In this document: positions 25,054-34,700 of the stretch, in pieces
Position numbering within the stretch: position 1 is the stretch's first letter
Layout of the letters: each line of letters begins with the position of its first letter
NCBI RefSeq assembly: GCF_001263395.1
Contig: NZ_CP011786.1
Location: forward strand, 558,001 to 622,000
Direction of reading: 5' to 3'
DNA from: Bifidobacterium actinocoloniiforme DSM 22766
GTDB taxonomy: Bacteria > Actinomycetota > Actinomycetes > Actinomycetales > Bifidobacteriaceae
Length of the DNA: 64,000 nt
Notes under the pieces: generated by a model
The model's database searches: none
What the model was told of the DNA's origin: nothing
Seen by the model: only the letters and a program-made list of their open reading frames with translations
Position numbers and translations under genes: made by a program

Positions 25054-25791
25054 TCAGACCCCGTAACGCTCCAGGTAGGCCTGGGCACGCTCGTAGAGTC
25101 GCTCATTCATCACAGGCCTTCCTTGTTCATCCTGCATGCCCCGGGCGGCTTGGAAGACCTGGCCCACGTTAGCAATCGAAAGGACGGGGAAGCCCAGCTC
25201 ATCCATGACCGCTTCGACGGCCGAGCGCCCCGAGTCGTCGGCCACCTCCATCCTGTCGACGCTGATGACCAGGCCCACCACCTGCACGTTCGCGGCGGCC
25301 TTGAGCTTGGGAACGCACTCGCGCACCGCAGTGCCGGCGGTCATCACATCGTCCACCAGCAGCACCCGCATCCCGTCTTCGAGCGGGGCGCCGACGAAGG
25401 AGCCGCCGTCCCCGTGGTCCTTCTTCTCCTTGCGGTCGAAGGTGTACCCGACCGTGCGGCCGTGCGCCGAACTCAGGGCGATGGCGGTCGAAACGGCCAG
25501 GGGTATCCCCTTGTAGGCCGGGCCGAAGATTGTGCCGAAGTCGCCGGGAAGCTGGCCATCGCGCACGCCTTTAAGGATGCGACGGGCGTAGAACTCGCCT
25601 AGGAGCGCAATCTTGGCGCCATCGTTGAAAGCTCCCGCATTGATGAAATACGGCGAGCGCCGACCGGACTTCAGCGTGAAGTCGCCGAAACGCAGGGCCC
25701 CGCTGCTCAACAGGAAACGGGTAAAGGCCTGGGACAGCCCCTCTTCCCCCTCGTCGCCCTTGCTTGCCTGTCCGTTCACGCTTACTTCCAT
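25054..25791 (-). CDS. pyrE: orotate phosphoribosyltransferase
   Basis: Joins orotate and PRPP to give OMP. The 245 residues show [16 protein letters not shown] near the N-terminus and the PRPP-binding motif [13 protein letters not shown]. The open frame runs further upstream, but the ATG at 25791 has GAAGGGA ahead of it and gives the family length. It overlaps the end of pyrD by about 10 bases. It is the last gene of the pyr operon. Confidence 0.95.
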
Positions 25792-26726
25792 GATGATCCC
25801 TTCTCTAAGGTTTCGGCCAGCTCGGGTCGCTGGTCGAGCAGTTCGTCCAATTGCCGCGCTATGCGCACCGGCGCCACAGGATCCACCAGGGCGGCCGCAC
25901 CCACCTCGACCGCGTTGGCCCCCGCGTAGAGGAATTCGAGCGCGTCCGAGCCGCTGGCGATGCCGCCCATGCCGATGATGGGCATCTCGGGCAGGGCCTG
26001 GCGCACCTTCCATACGCAGGCCAATGCGATCGGCAGGATTGCGGGGCCTGAAACCCCTCCGGTGACGTTGTCGATGATGGGCCGGCCCGTGGTCGTGTCC
26101 AGTCTCATACCAACCAGGGTGTTGATTAGGCTCAAGGCGTCCGCTCCCCCATTCGCGGCGGCGCGCGCGACCGCGGCGATGTCCGTCACATTCGGCGTGA
26201 GTTTGACCACCATCGGTTTGTCGGTCATGGCCCTGAGCCGGCTGATGAGACGTTCCAGACCGACTGGATCGGTGCCGGCCGACATGCCTCCGTGCGTGAC
26301 GTTAGGGCAGGAGACGTTGATCTCCAGCATGTCGGCCGGCGAGTCGGCCAGTTTAGCCACCACTTGCGCGTAGTCGTCGTCGCTGTGCCCGGCCACGTTG
26401 GTCACCACCAAGGCTCCCAGGTCCTTCAACCTGGGCAGTTCGTCGACCAGGTAGTCGTCCACCCCGGGATTCTGCAAGCCCACCGCGTTAACCATGCCAG
26501 ATGGCGACTCTGCGGTACGCGGGGTGGGATTACCCTCCCAGGCTACAGGCGAGACGCCCTTCGTGGATATGGCTCCCAGCTGGCTGACATCGTAGAAGTC
26601 TTGGCAGGCATCGAGCTTGAAGGTGCCGGAAGCCGCGCCGACCGGGTTCTTCCAGACGACCCCAGCCACCTGTGTGGGATGACGGTAAGTGTATGGCTCC
26701 AGGGGGTCGAATCCATCCATGCTCAT
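25782..26726 (-). CDS. pyrD: dihydroorotate dehydrogenase, class 1B catalytic subunit
   Basis: Oxidises dihydroorotate to orotate with FMN and passes electrons to PyrK. Motifs seen are [10 protein letters not shown] near the N-terminus, [34 protein letters not shown] and the FMN-phosphate motif GMGGI. The ATG at 26726 overlaps the pyrK stop as ATGA, which decides the start (314 residues). The presence of pyrK next door identifies the NAD-linked class 1B enzyme. Confidence 0.95.
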
Positions 26727-27553
26727 GCGTTCGTCCATCCTAACTGCTCTCCGGTGAAGACCGGTCCGTCCGCGCAGACCTTGAGTCTGCCGTCCACTGT
26801 GTCCACAGCACAGGCCACACAAGCTCCGTACCCGCAGCCCATCCGCTCCTCCAAACTGAACTGTGCGGGGATCGAACGGGCAGCCGCCCAGGCCGCCACC
26901 GCTTTCATCATCGCTGTCGGCCCGCAGGAGATGATCGCGGATCTGGCTGGGTCGAGCTGGGGCTCGAAACGGTCCAAGAGCGTGATGACATCGCCCTCCG
27001 GCTCACTGATCGACAGGGTTCGGTCAGCGCTGGCTGCCACCAGAGGGTCCGCGAATCGCTCATTCTGGTAGCCGAAGACGGCTATGGCCCGAGCGTCAGC
27101 CCGCTGGCTCAGCGCTTGGGCAGCCGCGATCAGCGGAGGAACGCCCAAACCGCCACCGACCAGCAAGTAGTCGCCTGGTCGGCTCAGGTCGTACGGCCTG
27201 CCAAGAGGCCCCAGCAGGTCAACTTCATCGCCCGGCTTCAGGCGGGCGAGCGCGGCGGTCCCCCGACCGATTACCTGATAGACCAAGTCCAGCTCGTCGC
27301 CGTCAGTCCTCGCGACGCCGAAGGGGCGGGGCAGCATGGCCGAGGGATCGGGAGCATAGAGATTGACGAATTGGCCCGCCGAAGCGGTCCTGGCCGCGTA
27401 AGGGTCGCGGACGGTCAATAGCCGGGCCGCGCCGCCCTCCAGGCTGAGCGCCGCGCTGACCTTAGCGGTGCGCCTGCCTGGGCGTTTGCCTTCCGCCTGG
27501 GCTTGGGCGACCACCTGTTCGGTAGGTCTGAACTGAGTCGTTTGAATACTCAC
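26723..27553 (-). CDS. pyrK: dihydroorotate dehydrogenase electron-transfer subunit
   Basis: FAD and [2Fe-2S] protein that links PyrD to NAD. It shows the FAD-binding RPFGVAR region, the nucleotide-binding GGGLGVPPLIAAA, and near the C-terminus four cysteines in GCGYGACVAC...VC for the iron-sulfur cluster. The open frame extends far upstream inside pyrF, but GTG at 27553 overlaps the pyrF stop as GTGA and gives 276 residues, the expected size. Confidence 0.94.
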   Translation of the reverse strand: MSIQTTQFRPTEQVVAQAQAEGKRPGRRTAKVSAALSLEGGAARLLTVRDPYAARTASAGQFVNLYAPDPSAMLPRPFGVARTDGDELDLVYQVIGRGTAALARLKPGDEVDLLGPLGRPYDLSRPGDYLLVGGGLGVPPLIAAAQALSQRADARAIAVFGYQNERFADPLVAASADRTLSISEPEGDVITLLDRFEPQLDPARSAIISCGPTAMMKAVAAWAAARSIPAQFSLEERMGCGYGACVACAVDTVDGRLKVCADGPVFTGEQLGWTNA

Positions 27554-28641
27554 TTGGTCTCCTTCACGGCTTGGGTCAGTTCTGTTTTCATCGTCACAGC
27601 GGCCTTCCGAGCCTCGGAGGAGACCAGTCCCAAGGCCACCTCCAGGCTGAGCGAGGGGCTCCAGGATCCGCTGCGTTTCCAGGCGCCTATGATGCCCCGG
27701 GAGGAGTTGACTATCGCGCCGGACCCGTCCGGCCCGAACATGGCCGCTGCATCCTTTGCCGTTCCGCCTTGGGCCCCATAGCCCGGCAACAGGAAGAAGG
27801 TGTGCGGCATAGCTTGGCGCAAGAGCGCTCCCACCTGTGGCTGAGTTGCGCCCACGACCGCACCGATACGGGAATAGCCGCAGGAACCGACGCTGGAGGC
27901 CCCCCACTCCTCCACTAGCTCGCCGACCCGCTGGCACAGGTTGCGCCCCTCTTGCCCATCCGCGAGGGGGAGTTCCTGGATTTGGCTGGAGGATGGGTTC
28001 GAGGTGCGCACTAAAACGAAGATGTCCTTGTCGTGGGCCTGCGCAGCCTGCACGAAAGGTTCGATGCCGTCGGAACCCAGGTAGGGGTTGACGGTGATCG
28101 CGTCCTCCTGCCAGGGAGAGGGGGCGGGGGCCTCCCGATGGGCCGGGTCCGTCCCTGCCTCCACTTGGAGACAGGCCTGGCCCCAAGTCAGGGGAAGACC
28201 GGACAGGTGGCAGGCGTAGGCGGACGCAGTTGATCCGATGTCGCCTCGCTTCACATCGCCGATCACGTAGAGCCCCCGTTCCCGAGCGGCCCGGCAGGTG
28301 GACAGGTAAGCCTCGATGCCGGGAGCCCCTAGGGCCTCGTACATGGCGATCTGGGGTTTGACGGCTGGCACCAGGTCGGCCACCGCGTCCAGGACCGACA
28401 GATTGAAACGTACGTAGGCCTGGGCCAGTTCATAGGCCCAGGATTCGTCAAGGCGCCTGCGATCGTCGGGCTCCAGGTCGTCAACGCCGGCGGGGGTCAA
28501 GTCAGGGATTCCCGACTTGGCGCGGGTGGTTTCCACGGCCTGGCGTATGAGCTGGTCGGGCAGGAGGGCGGGCCGTGGGTCCAAGCCCACTAAGCTGGGG
28601 TTGCCTTCCTTACCGGCTATGGCTGCGGCTAAGCGGTCCAT
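27550..28641 (-). CDS. pyrF: orotidine 5'-phosphate decarboxylase (type 2)
   Basis: Decarboxylates OMP to UMP, the final step of the pathway. The 363 residues from the ATG at 28641 (MDRLAAAIAGKEGNPSLVGL) fit the longer actinobacterial type 2 family, with VGLDPRP near 20 and the catalytic Asp-Lys-Asp motif in GDVKRGDIGSTA. It overlaps the 3' end of pyrC by about 13 bases and the start of pyrK by 4. The inserts around residue 165 and 200 are Pro/Ser-rich. Confidence 0.94.
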   Translation of the reverse strand: MDRLAAAIAGKEGNPSLVGLDPRPALLPDQLIRQAVETTRAKSGIPDLTPAGVDDLEPDDRRRLDESWAYELAQAYVRFNLSVLDAVADLVPAVKPQIAMYEALGAPGIEAYLSTCRAARERGLYVIGDVKRGDIGSTASAYACHLSGLPLTWGQACLQVEAGTDPAHREAPAPSPWQEDAITVNPYLGSDGIEPFVQAAQAHDKDIFVLVRTSNPSSSQIQELPLADGQEGRNLCQRVGELVEEWGASSVGSCGYSRIGAVVGATQPQVGALLRQAMPHTFFLLPGYGAQGGTAKDAAAMFGPDGSGAIVNSSRGIIGAWKRSGSWSPSLSLEVALGLVSSEARKAAVTMKTELTQAVKETK

Positions 28642-30155
28642 GATTGCCTTCCTTCCGGGTTCTTCCTCGGGGCCTGGGCAACGACTGCCTTGAACGCCTT
28701 CGGGTTGATGACTGAGTGCGTCGGTCGCCCTCCGACGATCGTCATGAGCGGCCTGCCGCTCACCGTCATCCCCTCGAAGGGGGTGTTGCGGGCTTTGGAC
28801 AGGAAACGGTTGGCCTCTACCGTCCACGACTCTTCCGGGGCCAGGACGACTAGATCCGCCTGGGCTGCCTGGGCATCGGCCGTGAGGTCAAGCACAGGCG
28901 CTGAGGCCCCCTCCTGGCTCCTCTGGCCGTTAACCTTGTGCATGATGGCTCCGATGTCGGTGGATGCCATGCCCATTAATCGCGCGGGGGCCAGGCTCAT
29001 CAGCTCGATGAGCCTGGCCTCGTCGATCCACCCTCCGTCCACCAAAACGCTGTGGCAGACCCCGTAAGCGCTCTCCAGACCTATGACCCCGTTGGGCGCT
29101 GACTCCAGGCCCCGCTCTTTCTCCGCCCTGGTATGGGGGGCGTGGTCGGTGGCGATCATGTCGACGGTCCCGTCGGCCATCGCCTCCAGGCTGGCCTGCC
29201 TGTCCGCCTCGGAGCGCAAGGGAGGGTTCATTTTTCCCATGGCTCCCAGGCGTGGCACGTCCTCGTCGGACAGGGCCAGGTAGTGGGGCGCGGTCTCGCA
29301 GCTGACCGGTAACCCTTGCCGTTTGGCTTCGCGTATGGCCTGGAAGGCGCCAGCGGTGGACACGTGCTGGAGGTGGATGCGCGCGCCAGTGGTCCGGGCC
29401 AGCTTGATGTCCCGGTTGACGATGGCGAGCTCGGTGGAGGCCGGAACCCCCTCCAGACCCAGTCTGCGCGAGACCGGCCCCTGGTTGATGAATCCCGTGC
29501 GGTGGCGCTCGCAGTGGTCCAGGAGGGGAATGCCCGCGGCCCGCGCGGAGAGGGCGACCTGCTCGGCGATGCCATCAGTCACGGCGGCACCGTCGTCGCT
29601 CAGGGCCACTACCGGGTGCAGGGCCGCGTTCGGATCGCTCTGGGACACGGGACCGCCCGGCAGATAGTCGGCCCAAGCGGAGGGCGGGTTCGGCACCAAC
29701 CCCTCTCGGTCCCGCGAGGCCGCCGCGCACAAACGGTAGCCTACGGGCAGGCGGCGGCCACGCTCCGACTCGTACCCCTGGAGGTAACCGATGACCTCGG
29801 GCCCGTCCATAGCCGGCTGGGTGTTGGGCATGATCAGGACCGAACTATAACCGCCGGCCGCGGCCGCCGAGCAGCCAGTGATCATATCCTCCTTGTCGGT
29901 GCCGCCGGGATCGCGGAAGTGGACATGGGGGTCGACCAGCCCCGGGGCCAAGAGAGCCCCGGTCAGATCGACCGCAAGGGTCCGGCCCTGCGCGCGCTCG
30001 CCCAGCCTCCGCCAAGCTTGGACCTCGTCCGCACCTGCGGCGAAACGCTCCACATCAGGCCAAGGCAGGAGGAGGTCCAAGCCTTGGCCGGTATCCCAGG
30101 CTTTGAGGCCGCGAAGCAGCAGGTTGGGGGCGTCCGACCCCTGGTCCGCGCGCAC
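28629..30155 (-). CDS. pyrC: dihydroorotase
   Basis: Zinc amidohydrolase that closes carbamoyl-aspartate to dihydroorotate. The 508 residues show the metal-binding DPHVHFRDPGGTDKED near 75, HLQHVSTAG, ATDHAPHT with the catalytic aspartate and the C-terminal composite-barrel part. The start is GTG at 30155, directly after the pyrI stop with no spacer. It is somewhat longer than usual, with an extra Ala/Glu-rich segment near 430 (SQEGASAPVLDLTADAQAAQ). Confidence 0.95.
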   Translation of the reverse strand: MRADQGSDAPNLLLRGLKAWDTGQGLDLLLPWPDVERFAAGADEVQAWRRLGERAQGRTLAVDLTGALLAPGLVDPHVHFRDPGGTDKEDMITGCSAAAAGGYSSVLIMPNTQPAMDGPEVIGYLQGYESERGRRLPVGYRLCAAASRDREGLVPNPPSAWADYLPGGPVSQSDPNAALHPVVALSDDGAAVTDGIAEQVALSARAAGIPLLDHCERHRTGFINQGPVSRRLGLEGVPASTELAIVNRDIKLARTTGARIHLQHVSTAGAFQAIREAKRQGLPVSCETAPHYLALSDEDVPRLGAMGKMNPPLRSEADRQASLEAMADGTVDMIATDHAPHTRAEKERGLESAPNGVIGLESAYGVCHSVLVDGGWIDEARLIELMSLAPARLMGMASTDIGAIMHKVNGQRSQEGASAPVLDLTADAQAAQADLVVLAPEESWTVEANRFLSKARNTPFEGMTVSGRPLMTIVGGRPTHSVINPKAFKAVVAQAPRKNPEGRQSWTA

Positions 30156-30575
30156 TTAAAGCTCCGCCTTCTCATCGCAGTAATCGCAGCGGTAGACTCC
30201 ACCGCCAACGCTGTCCAGGTGGAAGGACTGGATCAGACCGGTCTCGACGGTGGTGACGCAGCGCGGGTTGATGCAGCGGATCACGCCAGTCAGGTGCTCC
30301 GGCCGTTCAGGGCTGCACTTATCGACAATCCGCCCGTCCTCCACACGGTTGACAGTGGCTTGAGGGGCGACGAAGCCCAGGACCGTCAGATTCAGCTCGG
30401 AGCCACCTTCGATTTTGATGATGTCCTTGGAGCCGAAGCGCTCGCTCGGGGCGTTCATGATCAGCGCCAGGCGTGTTCTGGTGGGGTCCAAACCCAGGTA
30501 ATGCAAGACTTTAAGCGCCCTGCCGGCAGGCACATGGTCGATGATTACGCCTCGGTTGATGCTGGTGACTTCCAT
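30156..30575 (-). CDS. pyrI: aspartate carbamoyltransferase regulatory subunit
   Basis: Regulatory chain of aspartate transcarbamoylase, which binds CTP/ATP and holds a structural zinc. The 139 residues end with the four-cysteine zinc domain (CINPRC ... YRCDYCDEKAEL). The ATG at 30575 overlaps the pyrB stop by one base (TGATG), indicating translational coupling. Its presence points to allosteric feedback on PyrB. Confidence 0.94.
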   Translation of the reverse strand: MEVTSINRGVIIDHVPAGRALKVLHYLGLDPTRTRLALIMNAPSERFGSKDIIKIEGGSELNLTVLGFVAPQATVNRVEDGRIVDKCSPERPEHLTGVIRCINPRCVTTVETGLIQSFHLDSVGGGVYRCDYCDEKAEL

Positions 30576-31675
30576 CAGGCCTCCACTTCCTTCCACGCCT
30601 GGTATCCAGGCAGCTCATCACCCAACAGGGCCGCTTCCAGGGCCATTCGCACCAGCATCCCTTCCTTTACCTGCTGGAAGTACGCCGCTCGCGGATCCTG
30701 GTCCACCTCCTGGGCGATCTCGTTGACCCGGGGCAGCGGGTGGAGGACCGCCATGCTTGGCTTGGCGTGTGCGAGCTTGTCCTTGTCGAGGATGTAGGTG
30801 TCGCACAGGCGCAGGTAATCGTCCTCGTTGAAGAAGCGCTCCTTCTGGACGCGGGTCATGTAGAGCACGTCCAGGTCTCCAATCACGCTGAGCAGGTCAC
30901 TGGTCTGCTCATACTCGCAGCTTGGCGAGGCGTCGATCCGGTCGAGCACGTACTTAGGGCAGCGCAACTCGTCAGGGCTGATCAGCACGAAGCGGACGCC
31001 CCCGAAGCGGCTGAGCGTCTCGACAAGGGAGTGCACGGTGCGGCCAAAGGTCAAATCGCCGCACAAGCCGACGGTCAAACCGGTCAGCTTGCCGAATCGG
31101 GCTTGGATGGTAGCCAGATCCGCCAGCGTCTGCGTGGGGTGCATATGCCCACCGTCGCCTGCGTTGATGACCGGCACGCTGGCCGCCCTGGCCGCCACCA
31201 GCGCCGCACCCTCCTTGGGGTGGCGGATAGCCACCAGATCGGCGTAGTTAGACACGACTTTCAGGGTGTCGGAAATGGTCTCACCCTTGGAGGCGGAGGA
31301 CACTTGGGCTCCGGCGAAACCGATCACCTGGCCGCCCAGCCTCAGCATGGCTGTCTCGAAGCTCAGGCGCGTGCGCGTGGACGGCTCATAAAAAAGAGTG
31401 GCTAAGACCTTTCCTTCACAGGTCTTAGCCACTTGCCGACGATGGCCGTCGATGTAGGCGGCCCGGCTGATCAAATCCCGGATTTGATCAAGCCCCATAT
31501 CGTCCAAGGTCACCAAACTGGTGCCCGACAGGGACTCGATCGATCGCGTCGATCCAGCTCGCTGATGTTTGGAATGCGGAGAGAACTTATCCTGCCCAAC
31601 CTTGGGGCCTACCCGTCGTTCAGACAACGGCGCACCTTTCCCGAAAAGGTGGCCACCTTGTGTGACCTGTACCAC
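30575..31675 (-). CDS. pyrB: aspartate carbamoyltransferase catalytic subunit
   Basis: Makes carbamoyl-aspartate, the committed step. Motifs: the carbamoyl-phosphate loop FYEPSTRTRLSFE, ETISDTLKVVSNY, IRHPKEGAA, HPTQTLADL and HPLPRVNEI. Family similarity begins only at SLVTLDDMGLDQIR, so the true start is uncertain. The coordinates use the GTG at 31675, which has GGAG 4 bases upstream and gives a 50-residue leader; a TTG near 31510 would give about 310 residues. An intrinsic terminator structure lies inside the coding sequence at 31390-31433, and two alternative hairpins lie at 31633-31659. It is the first gene of the pyr operon, 60 bp after glnE. Confidence 0.93.
   Translation of the reverse strand: MVQVTQGGHLFGKGAPLSERRVGPKVGQDKFSPHSKHQRAGSTRSIESLSGTSLVTLDDMGLDQIRDLISRAAYIDGHRRQVAKTCEGKVLATLFYEPSTRTRLSFETAMLRLGGQVIGFAGAQVSSASKGETISDTLKVVSNYADLVAIRHPKEGAALVAARAASVPVINAGDGGHMHPTQTLADLATIQARFGKLTGLTVGLCGDLTFGRTVHSLVETLSRFGGVRFVLISPDELRCPKYVLDRIDASPSCEYEQTSDLLSVIGDLDVLYMTRVQKERFFNEDDYLRLCDTYILDKDKLAHAKPSMAVLHPLPRVNEIAQEVDQDPRAAYFQQVKEGMLVRMALEAALLGDELPGYQAWKEVEA
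31390..31433 (-). terminator. intrinsic terminator inside the pyrB coding sequence
   Basis: On the pyrB strand, 31433-31420 and 31410-31397 form a perfect 14-bp stem with a 9-base loop, followed by C and six U (31395-31390). It encodes the conserved residues VAKTCEGKVLATLF in frame. Stem and U-run use AT-rich codons (TTA, ACT, CTT, TTT, TAT) unlike the rest of the gene. It should stop transcription unless a translating ribosome covers it. Confidence 0.7.
31633..31659 (-). promoter_or_regulatory. two mutually exclusive hairpins in the pyr leader
   Basis: On the minus strand the palindrome AAGGTGGCCACCTT (31659-31646) overlaps a second stem CACCTTT/AAAGGTG (31651-31633, loop TCGGG), so only one can form. 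A third stem (CCGTTGT/ACGACGG) follows at about 31629-31612. They lie at the 5' end of pyrB; no PyrR-type binding motif was recognised. Confidence 0.45.
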
Positions 31676-31735
31676 AGTACTCCATGAGGCCGACCAAGCC
31701 GGCGAGGCGTAGGATAAGCCGCTTCCCTCGGCGAG

Positions 31736-34700
31736 TCATTGGCCGTAGAAAAGACGGACCATCACTTCGCGCGAGCGGCGCATGGCCGCCAGGAGCTGGT
31801 TGACGAAGTCGGCTCCGCGGTGGGCGGGATAGCCTTGGTAAACGGCCATGGCTCCCAGGGTGTAAGTGTCGTCGGGCAGAATGTCGGCCTGGCTGGCCCG
31901 CCCTGACCACAGATAGGAGCCGTTCCTGGCGCCGGTGCACAGACGCCAGCCTTCCCGAAGGGTCTTGGCGTCCTTCGACGCGATGAGCCCCAGTTCCTTC
32001 AACTCGTCGAGGGCTTCAAGCGTGGATGTGGTCCTCAGGCCCGGGCACTGGCCGGCGTATTCGAGTTGGTAGAGCTGGACGGTCCATTCCACGTCCGAGA
32101 GCCCTCCGGCGCCCAGTTTCAGGTGGCGATCGCGACGGACACCACGCGGCAAGCGTTCAGCTTCCATGCGGGCTTTGAGCTTGCGGATCTCGGCCACTTG
32201 CTCCACGGATGGGGGCGAAGCCGGATAACGCAGGGGATCGGCCACCTCGAAGAGGAAGCGATCGGCCAAATTCTCGTCTCCCGCGGCTCGACGGGCTCGC
32301 AGGAGGGCCTGATGCTCCCAAACCGCCGACCACTGCTGGTAGTAGCGCCGGCAGGATTCCAAGGAACGCACAATAGGCCCAATCTTCCCTTCGGGCCGCA
32401 AATCCAGATCCAAGTCCACCTTGGGCTCAAGGCTCAGGGTCATTGAACCCAAAATGGCCCGCAAGTCATCCGAAACGGCCCGGGCGAAGGCACCGGCCTG
32501 AGCATCGTCAGCCTCCGCCGCAGGTTCGTAAATCAGCATGGCGTCAGCATCGGAGTTGAAGTTCACTTCCCTGCCGCCGTAGCGCCCCAGAGCGATCACG
32601 CAGATTCGGGCGGGCGCGTGGTCCAGACCCTGCTGCCGCTTCTGGTTTTGCAGGGCCCAGTCCAGGGATGATTGCATCATCGCGTCGTGGACGTCGCTCA
32701 TCCCCTCCAGACAGGCGCTTTCGTCGTTCACCCGGCTCAACCAGCCCAGGCCGATTCGCTCAATCTCCCGCCGGCGCATGGCGCGAACAGCGTCAGCGAA
32801 ACCGGCCATATCGTCGGCGTGCCGCTGAAGGTAAGCGTCGCACGAGATGGTCAGCGAGTCCAAGCCTCTGGGTTCCAGCAGGTGGTCATCCCCCAGCCAG
32901 GTGACCGATTCCACAGACTTGCACAGGGCGCCTGACAGGTAGCGGGAGTTGGCCAGCACGTGGCAGAGTCGGCGGGCGGCCGAGGAGGAGTCGCGCAGGA
33001 AACCTAGGTAAGTGCTTTTGTTGCCGAAGCGTTCCTCCAGGGTGCGCCAACCCAGCAGTCCCATGTCCGGATCCTGCCCCGCTCCCAGCCAGGCGAATAC
33101 AGCGGGCAGGAGGATGCGGTTGATCTTAGCCGACCGGGTCAGCCCCCGAGTCAGGGCCTGGACGTGGCGGAGGGCGGCATCCGGGTCGGCGAAGCCAATC
33201 GACGCGAAACGCTCCTTGGCGGCCTCGGGCTTCAAACTCACCTCGTCATCGTCTAGCTGGGCCTCGATTGGAAGCATGGGACGGAAGTAGATGGCCAGGT
33301 GGAGCCGACGGACCTCACGGCGGGTGCGGTCGTAGCGGTCGACCAGCTCGTCCGGGTGCAGGTCGAAAGCCCGGCTCAGCCGGCTCAGCTCCTCATTGCT
33401 CTCCAAATCCTTCAGGGTGAGCTTGCGCCGCGATTTGAGGCCGCCCTGGTTATGGGAACCCAGGTCCGGGAAGAGGTGGGTGCGCTTGAGCAGCCACATC
33501 TGCTGACGATGCTCCAAGACACGCTCGAATCGGTAATCAGCGGCCAGGCGGCGAGCGTGGTGGGAGGAGATGTACCCGCCAGCCGCCAGGGCGTCCAAGG
33601 CGTCCAGCGTGGACCTGACGCGCAAACTGGAATCGGTACGGCCATGGACCAGCTGGAGCATCTGCACGGTGAACTCGACATCACGCAGGCCCCCAGCGCC
33701 CAGCTTGATCTCCCTGTCCTTGAGCTTGGCTGGGATCAGCGTCTCCACCCGCGAGCGCATTTCCTGACAGTCGTATACGAAATTGGGACGCTGCGAGGCG
33801 GACCAGACCAGCTCGTCGCACATGGCCTGGTAGCGCTCGCCCAGGTCCGCGTCCCCAGCCACGGGACGGGCCTTGAGCAGGGCCTGGAACTCCCAGTTAT
33901 CCGCCCATGACCCGTAGTATTCGCGGTGGGAGTCGAGGGTGCGCACCAAGGGACCGTCCTTGCCTTCCGGTCGCAGGGCGGTGTCCACCTTCCACAGGGG
34001 CGGCTCGACGACACCGGGAATGACCGATTGGCAGATTCGTTGGAGAGCCATGGCTATGGCGCTGCCGGTCTCCACCAGGTCGTGCGCGCTGGAACCGGTT
34101 TCCGGCCCCGCTGGCTCGACCAGGTAAATCAGGTCAACGTCCGACACGTAGTTGAGCTCCTGGGCGCCGAGCTTTCCCATGCCGATCACCGCGAAACGGC
34201 AGGAGTCCGCCCCTGGCACCTTACGGCGGGCAATCGCCAAGGCCGCGTCCAAGGTTTCGCCGGCCAGGTCCGACAGGGCGCGGCTGACCTGGGGCTGGGC
34301 GGCGACCGGGTCCCGGGCCCTCAAATCATCCGCCATGATCGCCGCCAGCCGCCGATAGTAACCTGCTCTGAGCGCACTGACGGCTGGGGCGTAGTTAATC
34401 CTCTTGCCTGCGCCGGCGGCATGCGCCACCTCCTGACGCAAGCTAGCCCCGCCCAATTGCCCATGGGCCGCTGCCGCCACCAGGGCGGGCCGGTGTTGCA
34501 TCAGCCTCCCCATAGCCTGCGAGGCTCCGAGCACCAACACCAGGCGATTCAAGGCCTCCGGCCTCCGAGCCAAGTGACTCATGCTCAGTTCCGAGCCATA
34601 TTCGTTGGCCTCCGCGCCCACAACGGAAGTCCCAACCCCTTGCATCCCAGGCTCGTAAATGCCGCTGCCGGGCCAGGCGGGCGCGGGGGCGACGCCAGGG

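Follow-up and report, generated by a model that had tools for sequence, protein, structure and literature searches.

In Bacillus and Mycobacterium, Gram-positive pyr operons are controlled by the protein PyrR, which brings about attenuation or translational repression via mRNA structure. In Escherichia coli, translation of pyrC and pyrD is controlled by a hairpin at the 5′ end of the mRNA that sequesters the Shine-Dalgarno (SD) sequence, and the pyrimidine signal is the choice of the transcription start site at a pyrimidine nucleotide. The pyrBI operon of E. coli is preceded by a UTP-sensitive attenuator that makes use of the leader peptide PyrL; its terminator lies within a 135-bp leader ORF (PMC4824070) and is suppressed by a ribosome moving close behind the polymerase (PMC5021804). 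Intrinsic terminators internal to coding sequences have also been predicted in E. coli, for example in rsxC and narY, and they are likewise suppressed by a close ribosome (PMC5021804).

The pyrB mRNA of Bifidobacterium actinocoloniiforme appears to combine a leader that masks the SD with an intrinsic terminator inside the gene, and we propose that both form a two-part cis-acting attenuator, a reading to which we assign a probability of roughly 0.6. As in the E. coli pyrBI attenuator, the operon is pyrBI, the terminator is of the intrinsic type, and its use would depend on the closeness between the ribosome and the RNA polymerase (RNAP). However, the bifidobacterial terminator is located inside pyrB (codons 65-80, in the conserved core) and not upstream of the first gene; there is no separate leader peptide, since it is pyrB that the terminator overlaps; and the terminator is preceded by a distinct leader that sequesters the SD, with no clear U-rich pause stretch. 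By analogy, the device would work like the E. coli pyrBI attenuator, but without two of its defining features. The likeness to pyrC and pyrD resides in a short SD-hiding hairpin close to the 5′ end of the transcript, although the predicted transcription start is here an A or a G and an in-gene terminator follows the leader. Unlike the organisms with PyrR systems, the Bifidobacteriaceae lack PyrR in 188 of 189 genomes, and their leader has no Rfam match. With respect to the E. coli terminators of the rsxC and narY type, which are single-genome predictions, the pyrB terminator differs in being kept family-wide by compensatory change and in being paired with a leader for translation control. No description of a bifidobacterial pyrB attenuator was found in the open-access literature, a scope outside which most subscription papers fall.

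The window, which is the whole 64-kb stretch of DNA analyzed, corresponds to G000:C1:558001-622000, G000 being a complete genome of 1.83 Mb. The genes of interest are as follows:

30575-31627, minus strand: pyrB, catalytic subunit of aspartate carbamoyltransferase (ATCase), 350 aa from TTG (TIGR00670, 326.8 bits, cut-off 236.95)
31625-31627, minus strand: pyrB start codon TTG, in frame, 5 nt past the conserved SD
31434-31624, minus strand: translated stretch from the start codon to the terminator (codons 2-65), comprising the variable N-terminal extension and the start of the ATCase fold
30156-30596, minus strand: pyrI, ATCase regulatory subunit, the next gene downstream (NF002063, 177.9 bits, cut-off 171)
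25782-30155, minus strand: pyrC, pyrF, a pyrK-like gene (electron transfer subunit) and pyrD, downstream of the terminator

The NCBIfam models TIGR00857, TIGR02127 and NF005574 scored over their cut-offs, and those for the electron transfer subunit scored below. Since pyrI, pyrC, pyrF, pyrK-like and pyrD all lie downstream, termination in pyrB would silence the whole operon. The start of pyrB was placed at the TTG on the basis of the conserved SD and the frame, and the arrangement in which ATG, GTG or TTG follows the SD is common to 129 species. This start, which did not appear in the preliminary description of the locus, yields the ORF of 350 aa, with the stem beginning at nt 195 and the U tract in codons 78-80. 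Native bifidobacterial PyrB proteins hold, upstream of the usual ATCase start, an N-terminal extension whose sequence is not conserved; in the family, 52-93 codons separate the start from the Phe codon of the FYEP motif. These proteins share 57-64% identity with those of Clostridia and Spirochaetes and 38-43% with the best matches in the other families of their own order, and this higher identity to distant groups suggests an old horizontal origin of bifidobacterial pyrBI.

The predicted terminator consists of the following elements:

31397-31433, minus strand: terminator hairpin, 14-bp stem (arms 31420-31433 and 31397-31410) with a loop of 9 nt
31390-31395, minus strand: U6 tract, codons 78-80 CTT TTT TAT (Leu-Phe-Tyr)

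These are exactly the stem, loop and U6 coordinates that had been proposed from the first inspection of the sequence. The two arms, of 14 nt each and 9 nt apart, are 100% complementary, and the hairpin reads in order AGUGGCUAAGACCU, loop GUGAAGGAA, AGGUCUUAGCCACU, a single C between stem and tract, and UUUUUU, occupying approximately nt 195-240 of the pyrB ORF. The minus-strand RNA folds with -28.2 kcal/mol (z -5.2), a value that none of 200 dinucleotide shuffles equalled. When both strands of the window were scanned under a strict definition (perfect stem of at least 10 bp, loop of 3-12 nt, and at least 5 T in 8 nt), this hairpin was the sole match, and with a loop limit of 8 it is missed, because its loop has 9 nt. 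A stable stem-loop is followed here by C and U6, and across the family the T-rich tail tracks the strength of the stem; the hairpin is accordingly predicted to be an intrinsic terminator, which would act as such in cells. An antisense terminator was rejected, as the stem on the plus strand has no T run after it in the window, and so was frameshifting, because the U run makes no in-frame slippery heptamer and the hairpin is upstream of it.

Other paired sequences are found elsewhere in the window. At 71-118, an inverted repeat is perfect over 21 bp around a loop of 6 nt, and the strict scan detected no T run after it. Between 35321 and 51172, eight or nine intergenic-looking paired elements of ~65 bp share the pattern ATTTTGGGCAn(5)TCAC ... 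GTGAn(5)TGCCCAAAAT, in which 46-47 nt separate the two inverted boxes in every case; box matches in the window amount to 19 for 0.3 expected, and 14 of the 15 matches in the genome fall within these 16 kb.

The AT-rich codons TTA, CTT, TTT and TAT had been described as atypical for the gene, and they are indeed rare in pyrB, pyrI, pyrC and glnE: TTA represents 2.4% and CTT 6.9% of Leu codons, TTT 4.8% of Phe codons (2 of 42), and TAT 21% of Tyr codons. When the pyrB gene of the window was compared on its own with synonymous recoding, p was 0.014 for the tail and a modest 0.045 for the stem. The strong evidence for the terminator is comparative and does not come from this single gene. The modest value would also suit a coincidence of protein and codons, in which the codons available for the conserved peptide VAxTCxG(R/K)VLATLFY would form a near palindrome by chance; the fixed codons of VA...VLAT do supply part of the pairing in every species.

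A search of 189 genomes of the family provided 152 native orthologous pyrB genes, one per species, and all of them encode the peptide context V-A-x-T-C-x-x-[RK]-x-L-A-T-L-F-[YF], with minor variants. A U-rich tail, defined as at least 6 T in 9 nt at the Leu-Phe-Tyr codons, is present at the homologous codons in 85 of the 152, mostly as CTT TTT TAT or as TTG/TTA TTT TAT, even where third-position GC is ~0.9. Stem energy was evaluated against a null in which the protein and the codon usage of each gene were held, and this null is still exceeded: the mean z is -2.4 in genes with the tail (n=85) and -0.5 to -0.7 in those without it, with a correlation of -0.62 between stem z and T count. In 40 tail-bearing genes, the segment containing the hairpin shows the lowest mean z of the 150 scanned along pyrB (-2.28, for a mean of -0.37 and an sd of 0.41). 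Stem and tail occur together in B. leontopitheci, B. boum, B. catenulatum subsp. kashiwanohense, Alloscardovia omnicolens and Gardnerella, among other species.

The register of the stem in the window, in which the codon wobble positions of the 5′ arm pair with those of the 3′ arm, is ideal for a covariation test. In 61 distinct tail-bearing sequences, each of the five wobble-wobble pairs covaries above shuffled columns (p ≤0.001), whereas none of the five reached p <0.05 in column shuffles of 58 distinct tail-less sequences. Column shuffles ignore relatedness, which is kept in a control that slides the five-pair pattern along the gene; the hairpin register ranks first of 258 in the tail group (excess 0.92, z 6.5) and 112th of 258 in the tail-less group. 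Amino acids change as well: substitutions at the ‘x’ position that extend the stem (Lys, Asn, Gly, Arg or Asp for His) are almost confined to the tail group, and VAKTC, VANTC, VAGTC and VADSC...RLLAT each occur with a matching 3′ arm. In the last of these (locus L190), a change of Thr to Ser is compensated by one of Val to Leu.

Selection on the terminator RNA is well supported by these comparisons, in agreement with the earlier suggestion that the structure was selected rather than accidental, given that tail and stem co-occur, the stem covaries and near relatives keep it. A mere coincidence of protein and codons is consequently very unlikely, as it fails to explain why the null is exceeded, why wobble covariation is found only in tail-bearing genes, or why the stem-extending substitutions are almost restricted to them. 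Even less credible is that the repeat acts at the DNA level, for instance as a repressor operator: a 14-bp inverted repeat would be a plausible protein site, but its sequence varies between species without loss of pairing, and only on one strand is it linked to a T run.

On the pyrB tree, the gene of the window groups with its nearest relatives (G018 and G006), both of which retain the stem and U6; the stem of G006 is perfect over 15 bp and differs in sequence from that of the window. The structure has been retained in these closest relatives with compensatory changes, some of which alter amino acids. The sister clade, formed by 16 members of the bee-associated B. asteroides group, has lost both stem and tail. 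The expectation that pairing would persist in close relatives therefore holds for the nearest ones and fails for the asteroides clade. The state of the tail has changed at least 22 times on the tree, and a sign test of the association between tail and stem on independent pairs, few of which are supported, was not significant (median p ~0.6-1). About 45% of the species lack the tail and keep the leader, which indicates that the terminator is dispensable. Outside the family, the Spirochaetales pyrB genes L082 and L097 present a stem-loop at the homologous site that runs into ACA CTT TTT TTT GAG, so that a similar terminator may exist outside the Bifidobacteriaceae. Inspection by eye of the RNA upstream of the stem revealed no shared alternative pairing that could act as an antiterminator; a candidate in a structured segment 17 codons upstream, strong in the window and in locus L009, was rejected because it is not conserved.

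A second part, which the preliminary description had not included, is a family-wide leader that precedes pyrB:

31674-31679, minus strand: -10 promoter element TACTGT, with the predicted transcription start at 31667 (or 31668)
31662-31667, minus strand: 5′ arm of leader stem P1, GGTCAC, predicted mRNA 5′ end
31651-31656, minus strand: 3′ arm of P1, GTGGCC, whose GGCC can alternatively pair with GCC past the SD (P2 extension)
31646-31650, minus strand: anti-SD ACCTT, 5′ arm of the P2 core, which covaries with the SD
31633-31638, minus strand: SD AAGGTG, 3′ arm of the P2 core (P2 pairing, covariance-model match)

In the family, a -10 TANNNT is followed after 6 nt by GGTC[AG]C; a short loop that varies leads to GTGGCC (or its equivalent), ACCTT comes directly after it, and a linker, likewise variable, joins this to AAAGGTG(A)GCC, ahead of the start codon. 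In all 88 distinct upstream sequences of the family, the distance from TANNNT to GGTC is exactly 6 nt, and this fixed spacing implies that the RNA should begin at or beside GGTC, with an A or a G at a fixed distance from the -10. Among the cells tabulated for 51 distinct leaders, pairing reaches 97.7% for P1 (GGUCAC and GUGGCC) and 94.1% for the P2 core (ACCUU and AAGGU), with a double-sided change at pair 6-19 of P1; both together are 96% paired, compared with 31-54% in slid registers, and double-changed cells number 12 versus 2.6 in shuffles. As in known SD-sequestering pyr leaders, the SD is paired, here with a covarying partner: the combinations of anti-SD and SD are ACCT/AAGGTG (113), GCCT/AAGGCG (12) and GCCT/AAGGTG (4). 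P2 can be extended via GGC/GCC in competition with the outer part of P1, and in predicted folds the leader of the window alone adopts the extended P2, while others fold as P1 plus the P2 core. Since P1 and the P2 core can coexist and the SD is paired in both folds, the leader does not have to switch between two states.

A covariance model matches the window at 31625-31668 (E 4e-18) and detects the leader at pyrB in 151 of the 189 genomes, with one strong site per genome, always at this gene. A leader regulon was rejected for this reason; in G000 no second copy was found at other pyr genes, the weaker matches examined not being at pyr genes. No leader site was detected in 56 non-bifidobacterial relatives of pyrB, and the matches in the other families of the order are weak; the strongest of them, the one whose location was checked against pyrB, lies ~145 kb from it on the same contig. 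The leader is restricted to native bifidobacterial pyrB. A known riboswitch or Rfam leader was also rejected, as no Rfam 15 family matched 31380-31760 up to E 5.

The leader is wider in distribution (151/189 genomes) than the terminator (85/152 pyrB genes), as would be expected if it alone regulated translation and the in-gene hairpin had another RNA role, such as giving rise to a short 5′ RNA of high stability, slowing the ribosomes or shielding the mRNA. We find this improbable: selection on the stem is seen only where the U tail is also present, which points to termination and not to the hairpin as such.

Control by PyrR was rejected, because this protein is missing in 188 of the 189 genomes. 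Neither of the traits of a PyrR-regulated leader, an encoded PyrR and an Rfam match, was found: the PyrR model NF003549 scored over its cut-off in G022 and not in G000. In G022, a species of the same genus, PyrR is encoded beside a divergent pyrB with 34% identity to the query (L233, G022:C15:41905-42429, and G022:C15:40770-41678), and the native pyrB and its leader have been lost. This association of PyrR with a foreign pyrB devoid of leader indicates that the leader travels with native pyrB, not with PyrR. The stretch of the divergent pyrB that was matched includes a TAA.

The best reading of these parts is a translation-coupled intragenic attenuator with pyrBI-type logic, in which the N-terminus of PyrB would play the role of leader peptide; the conserved SD-sequestering leader just upstream and the absence of PyrR strengthen it. 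P1 and the pairing of anti-SD with SD would make initiation at pyrB slow or conditional, and the terminator would be built into codons 65-80. A timely ribosome would trail RNAP closely and cover the stem, so that the whole pyrBICFKD operon would be transcribed; with a late or absent ribosome, the 14-bp stem would form and the polymerase would stop on the U tract, leaving a useless transcript of ~80 codons. The race between the polymerase and the first ribosome would decide whether the operon is transcribed. The input is likely the pyrimidine supply, which is a natural one given that UTP and CTP set polymerase speed: with ample UTP and CTP, the polymerase would outrun the first ribosome, and when they are low it would slow down and the ribosome would catch up. 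Species with only the leader would regulate translation alone. The existence of these parts, the way they are conserved and covary, and their confinement to native bifidobacterial pyrB are shown by the sequences themselves, and termination in cells, its suppression by ribosomes and the pyrimidine signal are what we infer from the arrangement of the locus.

In E. coli, the first ribosome has caught up with RNAP by ~100-200 nt; terminators located within the initial 100 bp of an ORF are out of its reach, and those farther on depend on coupling (PMC4824070). With its stem starting at nt 195, the pyrB terminator sits at a distance at which a ribosome that initiates normally should suppress it and one that initiates late should not. 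The stretch from the start to the terminator is not U-rich (T fraction 0.17-0.27; excess over the rest of the gene of 0.05 with the tail and 0.04 without it), which provides no clear UTP-dependent pause.

This anatomy would also work without a sensor, and the terminator occurs in only part of the family, with no second leader copy at other pyr genes in the genome of the window. Such features would also be consistent with a constitutive polarity device, that is, a real in-gene terminator which, without pyrimidine regulation, would cut untranslated pyrB transcripts (owing to mRNA damage, transcription running on from glnE or a shortage of ribosomes) as a stand-in for Rho polarity. We consider this unlikely, as it leaves unexplained both why a covarying anti-SD sequesters the SD and why the device is located in the pyr operon when the family lacks PyrR.

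Taking the attenuator reading further, we suggest tentatively that the Bifidobacteriaceae possess an undescribed two-part RNA that may sense pyrimidine supply without any protein, by the timing of polymerase and ribosome, and may replace PyrR in the control of the whole pyr operon. If this is true, it would explain by what means pyrimidine synthesis is controlled in a large family devoid of PyrR. The conserved catalytic core of an essential enzyme would then also contain an attenuator, kept by compensatory change even at the amino-acid level. It would span many species, including human gut bifidobacteria and Gardnerella. To our knowledge, transcription-translation coupling has been little studied in Actinobacteria, and the sister clades with and without the terminator would constitute a natural series for testing it in this group.
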